From NCBI RefSeq assembly GCF_041468085.1, contig NZ_CP121017.1, positions 4,189,501 through 4,253,500 of the forward strand: a DNA stretch of 64,000 bases. The letters are read 5' to 3'. The position numbers and the translations under genes were made by a program. Positions 40,924 through 48,109 of this stretch are shown here, piece by piece; the stretch's first letter is position 1; each line of letters begins with the position of its first letter. Source of the DNA: Tistrella mobilis. GTDB lineage: Bacteria; Pseudomonadota; Alphaproteobacteria; Tistrellales; Tistrellaceae. The notes beneath the pieces were generated by a model, which had not been told where the DNA came from, did not search any database, and worked only from the letters and a program-made list of their open reading frames with translations.

Positions 40924-41004
40924 CAGCCGCATCGCCGCCGCCCGGCGGCCCGACAGACGAAGATCCGGACGCCCGACGATCCGGACGCCAAGGGAGGACT
41001 GCCC

Positions 41005-42134
41005 ATGAACCGCTTCGCCATGACCGCCCTCGCCGGCTGCCTTTCCATCGCCGCCACCGGTGCCCAGGCCGGCGCCGACCTGATCGTGGCGTCATCGCTG
41101 CCCCAGGTGCATTTCTGGGTCGGCAAGCACATGGATCTCTTTGCCGACGCGATCGAAGAGCGGAGCGGTGGCGACATCGCCTTCACCCGCTTCTATGCCG
41201 GCGAACTCACCTCGGTCGGCCGCGAACTCGACGCGCTGCAGGGCGGCGCGATCGACGTGGCCGCCCCCCTGCTCGCCCCCTATCACGAGGGCGCTTTCCC
41301 GCTCTCCGACGTCACCCAGCTGCCGACGGTCGGCACCAGCTCGGTCACCCAGACCAAGGCTTTCCTGGCGCTGATGGACAGCACGACCGAGCTGGTTTCC
41401 TGGCGCTGATGGACAGCACGACCGAGCTGGTCGACGGCAAGACTTTCTACGACTACGAGATCGCCTCCAAGGGCATCCATGCCTGGCCGGTCGGCACCAC
41501 GGCGGCCTATGCGATCAGCTTCGCCAACAAGACGCCCAAATCGGCCGCGGACCTGAAGGGCATGCCGCTGCGCGCCGGCTCCGCCCTGCACACCATCTTC
41601 CTCAGCGAGTTGGGTGCCACGCCCGTCACCATGCCCTCTTCGGCGTCCTATGAAGCGCTGTCGCGTGGCACGGTCGAAGGCACGATCCTCTCGATCGGCG
41701 ACTGGCGGTCCTATTCGCTGCAGGACGTGCTGACCTACACCATCACCGGCGTCGCCGTCGGTCATTGGGGCAGCTATCTCGCCATCTCGGACACCGGCTG
41801 GACCGGACTTTCCGCCGATGAGCAGAAGCTCTGGGCCGATACGGCGCGCGAGATCGCGCTGCGCAATGCTGAGTTGATCGAGGCCCAGGACGCCGAGGTG
41901 CGCGAAGCCGCCGCCGCCAAAGGCTCCACCTTCGCCGATCTCTCGACCATCTCTCCCGACCTGAAGGCGGCGATCGAGACCGCCTCGACCGCGACCTGGC
42001 GCCGCTGGGTGGAGCAGACCGAGGCTGCCGGCCATCCGGGCCTTGCCACCGCCCGCCTCTGGGCGAAGCTGGTCGAGGAACAGGGCGGCAAGCTGCCCGC
42101 GGGTGTGGCCGCCTATCTCGAAAAGGGCGCCTGA
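41005..42134 (+). pseudogene. TRAP transporter substrate-binding protein DctP, split by a 35-bp tandem duplication
   Basis: The first part (41005-41409) encodes a signal peptide (about residues 1-26) and the N-terminal lobe up to FLALMDSTTELV, then runs into a stop. The second part resumes in another frame with the same residues and continues to the normal DctP end at 42134. Removing one copy of the duplication restores a single 364-aa DctP, the normal family length (DctP_7-like, with ASKGIHAWPVGTTAAYAIS and SLQDVLTYTITGVAVGHWG). As sequenced, the protein cannot be made whole. The dctM and dctQ genes behind it are intact, so the damage is recent, reversible, or a sequencing artefact. Confidence 0.85.
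41362..41431 (+). repeat. Perfect 35-bp tandem duplication inside dctP
   Basis: Copy one 41362-41396 and copy two 41397-41431 are identical and adjacent. As 35 is not a multiple of three, the duplication shifts the frame and creates the TGA at 41407-41409. Confidence 0.95.
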
Positions 42135-42206: not shown

Positions 42207-42236
42207 CCCGAAGGTCCCGTGCAAGGCCCGGATCCC

Positions 42237-43544
42237 ATGTCCCACGACATCATCCTGCTGATCGTCGCCGGCTGGTTCGTCTTTTTCCTGCTGCTCGGCC
42301 AGCATGTCGCCACGGTCCTGCTGGGGACCGGCATCGTCGGCATCCTGCTCTGGACGGGGCCGCGGGTGCTGAACGGCGTGCTCGGCCAGGACGTGTTCTA
42401 CACGGCGTCGAACTACTCGCTGTCGATCATCCCGCTCTATCTGCTGATGGCCCAGCTGCTGCTTCGCGGCGGGCTGGTGCTCGACCTGTTCCGGGTCGGC
42501 CATCGCATGGCCGGCTACAGGCGGTTTCCGCTTGGCGTGGCCACGCTCGTGATCGGCGGGCTGCTGGGGGCCGTTTCAGGTTCCGGGGCCGCATCCGCCG
42601 CCTCGCTCGCCACGCTTTCGGCACCCGAGCTGGAACGGGTCGGCTACAGCCGCCGCTTCGCGATCGGCCTTGCTGCCGTCGCCGGATCGCTGTCGGCGGT
42701 CATCCCGCCCAGCCTGATCGTGATCATCTACGGTGCCATCACCTCGGTGCCGATCGGCGCCCTGTTCATCGGCCTGCTGGGCCCCGGGCTGCTGTGCATG
42801 CTGGTCTATATCGGCTGCCTCGCCCTGTTTGAGGAACTGCGCCCGGAAGGTGCCGCCCCTGGTGCCCGTCCCGACCAGCCCGCCGAACTGGAGCGCGGCG
42901 CCCTTGGTGCCTCGCTGTTCATGCTCGCCCTGATGCTGGTGGTCTTCGGCGGGATCTACACCGGCATCATCACGGTGGGAGAAGCGGGTGCGGTCGGTGC
43001 GTTCACCGCCCTCGTCGGCCTCACCCTCATGCGCCGCATCGGCTGGCGCGATCTGGCGGCCGCACTGGCCGACAGCGTCAAGATCTCGGCCATGCTGATG
43101 CTGATCGTGATCGGCGCCCAGATCTTCGCCCGCTTCCTGGCGTTCTCGCGCCTGCCGCGCGAGCTGCTGGGGCTCGCCGAGCCGCTGGTCGGCTCCCCGG
43201 GCCTGCTGGTCGCCGTGCTGATGGTGGTGCTGTTCGTCGCCGGTATGATCCTGGAAAGTGCCGCGGTGATCCTGCTGATCGTGCCGATCGTGCTGCCCAT
43301 GCTGGAAGCAGCCGGCATCGACCTGCTCTGGTTCGGCGTTCTCGCCAGCTTCATGATCGCCCTCGGCCTGCTGACGCCCCCGGTCGGACTGTCCGCCTAT
43401 GCCGCCGCCGCGGCGCAACGCCATCCGGTGGCCGAGGTCTTCCGCCCGGCGGGCAAGTTTGCACTTGCCTCGGCCGTGATCGTCATCGGCGCCACGATCC
43501 TGTTTCCCGGGATCGTCACCTGGCTGCCCGGCAACCTCCGGTGA
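42237..43544 (+). CDS. TRAP transporter large permease subunit DctM
   Basis: Inner-membrane protein of 435 aa with about eleven to twelve hydrophobic segments, of the DctM family that forms the ion-coupled transport channel. Landmarks: SNYSLSIIPLYLLMAQLLLRGG, then GGLLGAVSGSGAASAASLATLSAPEL, SLSAVIPPSLIVIIYGAITS and a C-terminal LGLLTPPVGLSAYAAAA. ATG 42237 is preferred; a GTG at 42219 would add six residues. Gene order here is P-M-Q rather than the more frequent P-Q-M. Confidence 0.93.
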   Translation: MSHDIILLIVAGWFVFFLLLGQHVATVLLGTGIVGILLWTGPRVLNGVLGQDVFYTASNYSLSIIPLYLLMAQLLLRGGLVLDLFRVGHRMAGYRRFPLGVATLVIGGLLGAVSGSGAASAASLATLSAPELERVGYSRRFAIGLAAVAGSLSAVIPPSLIVIIYGAITSVPIGALFIGLLGPGLLCMLVYIGCLALFEELRPEGAAPGARPDQPAELERGALGASLFMLALMLVVFGGIYTGIITVGEAGAVGAFTALVGLTLMRRIGWRDLAAALADSVKISAMLMLIVIGAQIFARFLAFSRLPRELLGLAEPLVGSPGLLVAVLMVVLFVAGMILESAAVILLIVPIVLPMLEAAGIDLLWFGVLASFMIALGLLTPPVGLSAYAAAAAQRHPVAEVFRPAGKFALASAVIVIGATILFPGIVTWLPGNLR

Positions 43545-43549
43545 GATCC

Positions 43550-44098
43550 ATGACCAGATTTTACGGCCTGCTTGGCCGTTTCGAGTGGGGGCTGGCCTCG
43601 ATCGGCGCCGGTCTCTGCCTGTTCGCGGTGATGATCCTGACCGTGCTCAGCGTCTTCGGCCGCTATGCGCTGCACACCGATCTCGTCCCCGGCGCCTACA
43701 ACATCATCGAACGGATGCTCTTTCCGCTGATGGTGTTCTGGGCCCTGCCGCTTGCCCATCGCGACGGAATCTTTCCCCGGCTGGAAGTGATCGCGACCGC
43801 CCTGCCCCGGCGAGCCGGGTCGGCGGTCGCCATCCTGATGCTGGCGGTGGAGCTGGTGATCTTCCTGTTCCTGTTCTGGTATCTGGCGCAATATGCGGCG
43901 ACCGGCCTCAGGACCGGACGAACCATGCAGCTGGGGTCCGATTTCTTCCCGGTCTGGCCGTTCATCATGATGGTGCCGCTGGCGCTGGGGCTGATGGCGA
44001 TCGAAATGGTCTGGCAGATCGGCCAACACATCCGGCATTTCGCGACCGGTGTTCCGCTGTCCACGGCGAATGCCGACCTCACCGCCGGGGGCCAGTAG
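43550..44098 (+). CDS. TRAP transporter small permease subunit DctQ
   Basis: Inner-membrane protein of 182 aa with four hydrophobic segments (about 18-38, 56-74, 92-116, 138-158). The sequence LTVLSVFGRYALHTDLVPGAYNI matches the DctQ pattern with its Arg-Tyr motif. It starts 5 bp after the dctM stop. A GTG at 43541 overlapping dctM is an alternative start. It is the last transport gene of the operon. Confidence 0.88.
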   Translation: MTRFYGLLGRFEWGLASIGAGLCLFAVMILTVLSVFGRYALHTDLVPGAYNIIERMLFPLMVFWALPLAHRDGIFPRLEVIATALPRRAGSAVAILMLAVELVIFLFLFWYLAQYAATGLRTGRTMQLGSDFFPVWPFIMMVPLALGLMAIEMVWQIGQHIRHFATGVPLSTANADLTAGGQ

Positions 44099-44211: not shown

Positions 44212-44940
44212 ATGCTCGAGATCGCGAAACTGAAGATCCCGCCGGCCTATCAGGTCGTCTCGAAGGAACTCCAGCGCCTCATCGTCGACGGCCGGCTGAA
44301 GCCGGGCGAGCAGTTGCCGAGCGAGACCGAACTCGCCACACGCTTCGGTGTCAACCGCTCCACCATCCGCGAAGGCATCCGCCAGCTGGAAAGCGAAGGG
44401 CTGCTCCGGCGGGAGGGCCGCAAGCGGCTGGTGATCGCCATCCCGGGGCAGGAGGACATCTCGCCCCGCATGGAACGTGCGCTGCTGATGCATGACGTCA
44501 AGTTCAAGGAGCTTTGGGAGGTCGCCCGGGTCCTGGAACCGCTTGCCGCCTCGCTCGCCGCCGCCCGGATCACCGACGCGCAGATCGACGCGCTGGATGT
44601 GAACCTGGATGCCACCGCCCGTCTGGTGGCGGCCGGTGAGCCGACCGACGGCGTCGATACCGAATTCCACACGATGCTGGCCGAATTCTCCGGCAATCGC
44701 GCGCTGATGCTGTCGCGCGAGCCGATCGGCCAGCTGCTGTTCCGGCCCTATGTCGAACTGGGCAAACAGGTGAAGCAGGCGCCCCGCCGCAATCTGGAGG
44801 CCCACCGGGCGATCGTCGCGGCACTAAAGCTCAGGGATGCCGACGAGGCCTCGACCTGGATGGTCCGCCATATCGAGGATCTGCGCCGCGGCTGGCTGCT
44901 CTCGGGCCGCGCGATCGAGGACCGGATCGAGGAGCGTTGA
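44212..44940 (+). CDS. GntR-family (FadR/FCD) transcriptional regulator
   Basis: Protein of 242 aa. The N-terminal winged helix (about residues 1-70) has LIVDGRLKPGEQLPSETELATRFGVNRSTIREGIRQLES. The C-terminal part is an FCD ligand-binding domain (about 85-225, with metal-type His in HTMLAEFSGN and LEAHRAIVAAL). It follows the TRAP genes by 113 bp in the same direction and most likely controls them, responding to the TRAP substrate, probably an organic acid. ATG 44212 is chosen; ATG 44194 adds six residues. Confidence 0.88.
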   Translation: MLEIAKLKIPPAYQVVSKELQRLIVDGRLKPGEQLPSETELATRFGVNRSTIREGIRQLESEGLLRREGRKRLVIAIPGQEDISPRMERALLMHDVKFKELWEVARVLEPLAASLAAARITDAQIDALDVNLDATARLVAAGEPTDGVDTEFHTMLAEFSGNRALMLSREPIGQLLFRPYVELGKQVKQAPRRNLEAHRAIVAALKLRDADEASTWMVRHIEDLRRGWLLSGRAIEDRIEER

Positions 44941-46921: not shown

Positions 46922-48109
46922 ATGACGATGTCCGACGGCGTGTCTCGCCGCACCGTGTTCAAGACCGGCGCAGCCGCCACCGCAGCCGGCAACCTCGGCC
47001 AGCAGACATCGCGCCACGACCTCATGCCCGGGCTCGGCACCGAGGTGAGCCTCAGACTGCAGGCGATACCGGCGGTTCAGGGCATCGAACGGCTGACGCG
47101 GCTGGACACCCAGACCCCCGGCTTCATGCGCATCTTACGAGTTCGGCGCCGTTTTCGCCTTCGAGAGTGCAGTCGATGAACTCGCCTGGAAGCTGGGCGC
47201 CGCCCCGGTGGCCTTCCGCCTCACCCACGATACCGACCGCGCCCCTGCGATCACGCGGCTCACGCTCCGCGCCGACGGATCGGCCGAGATCGCTGTCGGC
47301 GGCCACGAAATGGGTCAGGGGCTGTGGACGGCCGTGGCTCTGGCCATGTCGAACCGACTGAGCATCGATCCCGCAGCCATCCGTGTGATCGCAGGCGATA
47401 CGGCAAGCGTCCCTCAGCACCTCACTGCCGGCTCGTGGGGCACGGCAACCGTTGTGCCGTCGGTAGAGGCAGCAGCGGAGAAGATGCATGCCCTGATCGC
47501 GGAACGGGAGGGGCGCGGGGGCCTCACCGCCGGCCTCTCCCGCCTCTTCGCCGGCAATGGCGGCCGACCGCTGGAGGTGACGGTCGAAAGCCTGGCCCCG
47601 GACAGGGCCAACCAGCCCTGGACCGGCTGCGCCAGGGGCTGCCGGCTGCCGCCGGACCCGACTATCCCGAAGCGGTGGCGATGTCCTTCGCCGCCCATTT
47701 CGTGGAAGTGGCCATCGATCCGCGCACCCGGATCCTGCAGGTGGTGCGCGCCCATTCCGTGTTCGACTGCGGACTGGTCATCTTAGGGAGGACTGCCCGG
47801 AGCCAGGCGCTGGGCGGCATGATCTGGGGGATCGGTGGCACCCTGTTCGAGGCAAGCGAGGTCGATCCCCGCGATGGCAGCTTCCTGAACGCCGACCTCG
47901 CCGACTATGTGGTCCCAAGCCACGCAGATATCGGCCGGCTTTCCGCAGAGTTCATCGACCTGCCGGACCCGATGCCGGGCGGGCCGGGCATGAAGGGGCT
48001 GGGCGAGGTCGCCTCGGTGGGCATGCCGGCGGCCATCGCTAACGCGGTCTTCCACGCCACCGGCCGGCGCATCCGCGACCTGCCGATCAGGGTCGATGCC
48101 CTGATCTGA
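46922..48109 (+). pseudogene. Decayed molybdopterin-binding hydroxylase subunit (isoquinoline 1-oxidoreductase/xanthine dehydrogenase family)
   Basis: Three pieces in different frames align to one family. Piece 1 (from the ATG at 46922) begins with a Tat-like leader, SRRTVFKTGAAATAAG, and reads to about 47130. Piece 2 (about 47136-47620) carries FAFESAVDELAWKLGAAPVAFRL and the molybdenum-site block GGHEMGQGLWTAVALAM and VPQHLTAGSWGTATVVPS. Piece 3 (about 47620-48109) has MSFAAHFVEVAID, TARSQALGGMIWGIGGTLFE and a normal C-terminus. Intact members are about 700-750 aa; here roughly 390 codons remain, so several hundred N-terminal residues are deleted and at least two frameshifts exist. No small Fe-S subunit gene is adjacent. 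Confidence 0.85.

Follow-up and report, generated by a model that had tools for sequence, protein, structure and literature searches.

A gene for the substrate-binding protein of a TRAP transporter (dctP) is broken in this genome by an exact tandem duplication of a 35-bp unit, and it is probable (about 80%) that this duplication arose spontaneously after the split from both Tistrella relatives used for comparison, frameshifting a gene that is otherwise conserved. The locus lies in a window of 64,000 nucleotides (the whole stretch of DNA that was analysed), which corresponds to positions 4,189,501-4,253,500 of a 4,916,686-bp contig in a 6.3-Mb genome of four contigs.

The duplication and the two pieces of dctP

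The tandem array occupies positions 41361-41431 of the forward strand and comprises two exact, head-to-tail copies of the 35-bp unit, in the form of a 36-nt match that overlaps by one T. Given this overlap, the copies may be written equally well as 41361-41395 and 41396-41430 or as 41362-41396 and 41397-41431; two adjacent exact copies at 41362-41431, as described in an earlier note on this DNA, were therefore confirmed, in one of two equivalent phasings. The array has a match of 100% and a TRF score of 142, the highest of the nine rows obtained for the window, and the 35-base pattern, with up to three mismatches allowed, has only two matches in the whole genome, both of them within the array. 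Several features of a spontaneous frameshifting tandem duplication of the pneumococcal capsule type were found here, namely exact adjacent copies within an open reading frame, a length that is not a multiple of three and absence from close relatives.

As a result of the shift, dctP is represented by two open reading frames on the forward strand. The 5' part (41005..41409, 134 aa) starts at ATG 41005, preceded by a GGAGG motif (identified by eye), keeps the native sequence up to residue 131 and ends with the residues SWR and a TGA stop at 41407-41409. It matches the DctP family (PF03480) with 28.6 bits (cut-off 23.4) and has no match among the NCBIfam models. The 3' part (41409..42134, 241 aa) matches the same family with 67.7 bits over positions 123-283 of the 286-position profile, and the NCBIfam model TRAP_S1 with 50.9 bits (cut-off 50). 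It begins in the middle of the protein (MDSTTELVDGK) and has no N-terminal signal sequence. Jointly, the two pieces span the whole protein, with eight residues (MDSTTELV) common to both. Each piece is thus separately above the Pfam cut-off, but they lie in different frames and do not form one continuous exported protein, i.e. the gene is a broken member of the family. This bears out the claim that a TRAP binding-protein gene was inactivated by an exact tandem duplication, and also the claim that loss of one copy would restore a protein of 364 aa, as 1130 minus 35 nt gives exactly 364 codons and a stop. From the equivalent methionine, the gene of T. mobilis KA081020-065 also encodes 364 aa, within an open reading frame of 380 aa that begins at an ATG 16 codons before MNRFA. 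Just upstream of the dctP start, an imperfect 16-bp tandem repeat (93%) was noted at 40958-40989 (forward strand), and the T. mobilis KA081020-065 frame runs on upstream through a stretch matching this repeat.

Reading of the sequence places the premature stop in overlap with the next in-frame ATG (TGATG, 41407..41411, forward strand). This is a possible termination-reinitiation point for the C-terminal piece, and reinitiation there may partly keep translation running into dctMQ. Programmed frameshifting was also considered and rejected, as inspection by eye revealed no slippery heptamer in the short overlap of the frames. The 134-aa piece appears (by eye) to keep the N-terminal signal sequence, but the greater part of the protein is missing from it. 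Reinitiation at TGATG would yield the 241-aa piece without a signal sequence; this piece should therefore remain in the cytoplasm, and a working importer is unlikely. Most likely, then, dctP is null; the binding protein would not work and the TRAP importer would be off.

The remaining genes of the locus, all on the forward strand, are intact. These are dctM, encoding the large permease subunit (42219..43544, 441 aa; PF06808, 225.4 bits), without gaps or stops in comparison with both relatives, dctQ, encoding the small permease subunit (43541..44098, 185 aa; PF04290, 61 bits), and a gene for a GntR/FCD regulator (44212..44940; PF00392 and PF07729, read from 44206). That the permeases and the regulator are intact, as had been proposed, was confirmed by the Pfam matches and the open frames, while NCBIfam was less clear-cut: DctM scored 258.4 bits against its best model, below the cut-off of 268.45, and DctQ matched none.

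The genome holds 38 DctP-family matches, two of which are the halves of the broken gene, which leaves about 37 genes, 36 of them others. When the C-terminal piece was used as a query, 19 other places in the genome were found at E ≤ 0.001, none with more than 31% identity over at least 100 residues; the best of them by E-value shares 26% identity with this half, and no close duplicate of dctP was found in the genome by this similarity search. The nearest solved chain by sequence is 4n6d_A (E 8.6e-12, residues 38-214 of the 241-aa piece), and most of the solved structures retrieved by sequence belong to TRAP binding proteins, listed without a stated ligand.

Further downstream, at 47208-48109 (forward strand), there is a remnant of a gene for the molybdenum-cofactor-binding subunit of an oxidoreductase, with PF20256 split over two frames. 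The corresponding pieces in one Tistrella relative (G001, C9:103753-108232) comprise about 2.7 kb more than in this genome, and in T. mobilis KA081020-065 only a 41-bp match was found in the neighbourhood of the remnant. This remnant is a case of older decay near the broken dctP.

Relatives, age and selection

Two other Tistrella genomes, G001 and G002 (the latter being T. mobilis KA081020-065), were compared with this one. In both, the dctP region is collinear and 91-92% identical, the 35-bp stretch is present as a single copy with continuous sequence at the site, and the dctP frame is open over 391 codons. The earlier note had proposed a comparison with sister strains as a check; in the comparison with congeners, the duplication proved absent from two of two, each with one copy and an open gene. 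A search of genome contigs with the C-terminal half identified 15 loci, of which 14 were aligned (including T. mobilis KA081020-065 itself) and one, L037, was left out as a partial match of 27% identity. All 14 aligned orthologues (13 of 13 besides T. mobilis KA081020-065) run unbroken through the site, in open reading frames of at least 364 aa. Since both congeners and the 13 more distant orthologues have a single copy, the duplication is, on this alignment, derived, and private to this genome among those examined. Among 385 genomes of the class, the C-terminal piece retrieved at E ≤ 1e-60 only three Tistrella genomes, this one included, and no megablast match was obtained among the plasmids of PLSDB.

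The two copies had been taken as very recent on the ground that they are identical. Recency stands in the sense of an origin after the split from both relatives, while identity of the copies is in itself weak evidence: zero differences in about 36 sites bound their divergence only to about 0.08 (rule of three). The synonymous divergence (dS) between this genome and the relatives is 0.16-0.39 over the gene pieces compared, and 0.16-0.26 for the two halves of the binding-protein gene. At 41384 and 41391 this genome differs from both congeners, and the same two lineage-specific bases stand in the second copy, at 41419 and 41426; the duplication therefore came after the substitutions that produced them.

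Five gene pieces could be aligned to both relatives without gaps and were used for an ungapped dN/dS comparison; the APH gene was left out, since an indel relative to G001 invalidates such a comparison, and its value for G002 was not used. Neither half of dctP carries a further stop or indel in relation to the relatives. The dN/dS ratios between this genome and the relatives are 0.07-0.13 for the halves of the binding-protein gene, and 0.10-0.12 for dctQ; dctM and the regulator both stand at about 0.02. Long decay is thus not indicated by any stop, indel or ratio close to neutrality, and the pattern is as expected for a recent loss. Between the two congeners the ratios are 0.02-0.03 (binding-protein halves), 0.03 (dctQ) and 0.02 (dctM). 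As the values for the binding protein and dctQ are higher in this lineage than between the congeners, selection on these two genes may have been somewhat relaxed, or different, here before the duplication took place.

The inverted repeat and the proposed origin of the duplication

A perfect inverted repeat of 12 bp is formed by a left arm at 41335..41346 and a right arm at 41385..41396 (both given on the forward strand); the outer end of the right arm is also the right end of the first copy, and the right arm is repeated at 41420-41431. In the window, a perfect inverted repeat of at least 12 bp with its partner no more than 100 bp upstream ends at 21 of 63,800 positions, and two of these 21 are the two right ends of the dctP array. 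Before allowing for the two junctions of the duplication, the chance of such a coincidence is about 3 in 10,000 per position, or 8 in 10,000 if a distance of up to 1 nt from either of the outer ends is allowed. No matching structure was found at the left end of the duplication, where there is complementarity of only 2-3 nt, and the coincidence is best regarded as a post-hoc reading of one event. The hairpin has a predicted energy of -18.5 kcal/mol (z -3.11) in this genome. For the relatives, in both of which 10 of the 12 arm positions pair, the values are -12.5 (z -0.99) and -12.6 (z -1.36), and this hairpin is no longer predicted. Two synonymous differences separate the perfect arms of this genome from the imperfect arms of the relatives.

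These features suggest hairpin-assisted replication slippage as the mechanism. During copying of the forward strand, the nascent strand could have folded into the 12-bp hairpin at the moment when synthesis reached the end of the right arm at 41396; the 3' end set free in this way would then have paired again with one matching T, 35 nt upstream, and been extended a second time. As with any such repeat, one copy would be expected to be lost precisely at a low frequency, which would bring back the reading frame. For insertions no longer than nine bp, the discussion of one report (PMC4022640) gives an expected reversion of at most about 1e-5. Another report (PMC8604942) describes template switching between imperfect inverted repeats, with homogenisation of the arms. 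The dctP arms, imperfect in the relatives and perfect here, are as such homogenisation would predict; unlike in that system, only two synonymous, unpolarised positions are concerned and the main event is a duplication, not a correction of the arms. The consulted sections of a review on palindromes (PMC7999016) hold nothing bearing on short bacterial duplications.

The background of similar repeats was estimated by a scan for exact tandem pairs with periods of 10-300 that covered 1.664 Mb of this genome, namely the window together with 80 stretches, each of 20 kb. It returned 51 rows (20 in 864 kb and 31 in 800 kb), of which 12 have a period of at least 17 that is not divisible by three; these were picked by period alone and include the dctP array as well as two rows that represent one array in L084. 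In 800 kb of T. mobilis KA081020-065 the same scan gave 18 rows, three of them out of frame with a period of at least 17. When compared with the congeners, the rows in L149, L074 and L164 lie in stretches of species-variable length and were judged to be intergenic; the row in L138 sits in a repetitive stretch. The array in L149 (18892-18944; G000:C2) consists of a 17-bp unit in triplicate, without mismatches, near a stretch resembling the APH gene of the window; the corresponding stretches of the congeners are shorter, by 19 and 34 bp, so the copy number may vary between species. Three copies of an 83-bp unit form an exact tandem array in L141 (18076-18324; G000:C1), and L160 (13246-13553; G000:C4) carries an exact array with units of 69/71 bp.

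Alternative readings and known systems

The duplication might be an assembly or sequencing error, in which case the genome would truly be single-copy and dctP intact. The two-copy allele is known from one assembly, both relatives have a single copy at the site, and dctM and the regulator show the low dN/dS ratios given above. Out-of-frame pairs with a period of at least 17 are also about twice as dense here (12 in 1.664 Mb versus 3 in 0.8 Mb of T. mobilis KA081020-065), although the counts are low, and two smaller contigs contributed to the second sample of this genome, whereas all of the T. mobilis sample came from contig C1. Against an error, a single short read can span the whole array of 71 bp, which is therefore easily assembled; besides, the assembly consists of just four contigs, and the one that carries the site is 4.92 Mb long, with its nearer end about 0.69 Mb away. 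We regard this explanation as unlikely, but as one that deserves to be kept in view.

A contingency (phase-variable) switch, with frequent gain and loss of copies, dctP off at two or three copies and on at one or four, and the arrangement kept by selection, would profit from the fact that 35 is not a multiple of three, so that the frame returns, by arithmetic, when one copy is lost or four are reached. A precedent is offered by the capsule genes of the pneumococcus (the type 3 locus, cap8E and tts), in which spontaneous duplications reportedly cause or control phase variation (Waite, Struthers and Dowson 2001; Waite et al. 2003). What speaks against a switch is that a contingency locus should show an unstable tract or recurrent copy variation in relatives, and neither repeat nor length variation was found at the dctP site in any of the two congeners or the 13 other aligned orthologues. 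Moreover, there are two copies only, with no ancestral repeat tract, and the literature on TRAP transporters and phase variation, as covered by titles and the openings of abstracts (and thinly for subscription papers), contains no TRAP switch. The reversible on/off switch raised in the earlier note thus finds no backing beyond the arithmetic, and we consider it very unlikely. A related scenario is a lineage-specific hotspot, in which two substitutions perfected the hairpin and 35-bp duplications are made and removed often, giving an incipient TRAP on/off switch with TGATG keeping dctMQ translated in the off state; this, too, we hold to be very unlikely. A working split gene, in which TGATG would couple translation and the overlapping fragments would assemble into a binding protein, agrees with the overlap of stop and ATG at 41407-41411 and with two pieces that cover the whole protein, but is barely credible, since TRAP binding proteins work on the outer side of the inner membrane and the 241-aa piece, starting mid-protein, lacks a signal sequence, no clear Shine-Dalgarno sequence precedes this piece (by eye), and no split dctP occurs among the 13 orthologues and two congeners.

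The duplication in dctP is therefore most likely not a dedicated switch but a breakage of an ordinary, known kind. It is one clear-cut case in which a gene was lost through a short tandem duplication with one breakpoint at the base of a hairpin, and it means that the TRAP phenotype of this strain may not represent that of its species. No new kind of system is added by this case. The locus has the known TRAP layout of dctP-dctM-dctQ with a GntR/FCD regulator and the same set of Pfam domains (DctP, DctM, DctQ, GntR and FCD), and differs from ordinary dctP-dctM-dctQ loci in that dctP is broken in this genome. As in the pneumococcal capsule duplications, the repeat lies within an open reading frame, turns the gene off and could be undone by the loss of one copy; in contrast to these, the target is a TRAP binding-protein gene of an alphaproteobacterium, and reversion would here be predicted from arithmetic. 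According to a report on Mycobacterium tuberculosis (PMC12817950), which also urges caution with regard to errors in reference sequences, the copy number of tandem repeats in promoters varies in that species, changing between close strains and within cultures. Those repeats recur across lineages and are located in promoters, whereas the dctP repeat is coding and was seen once.
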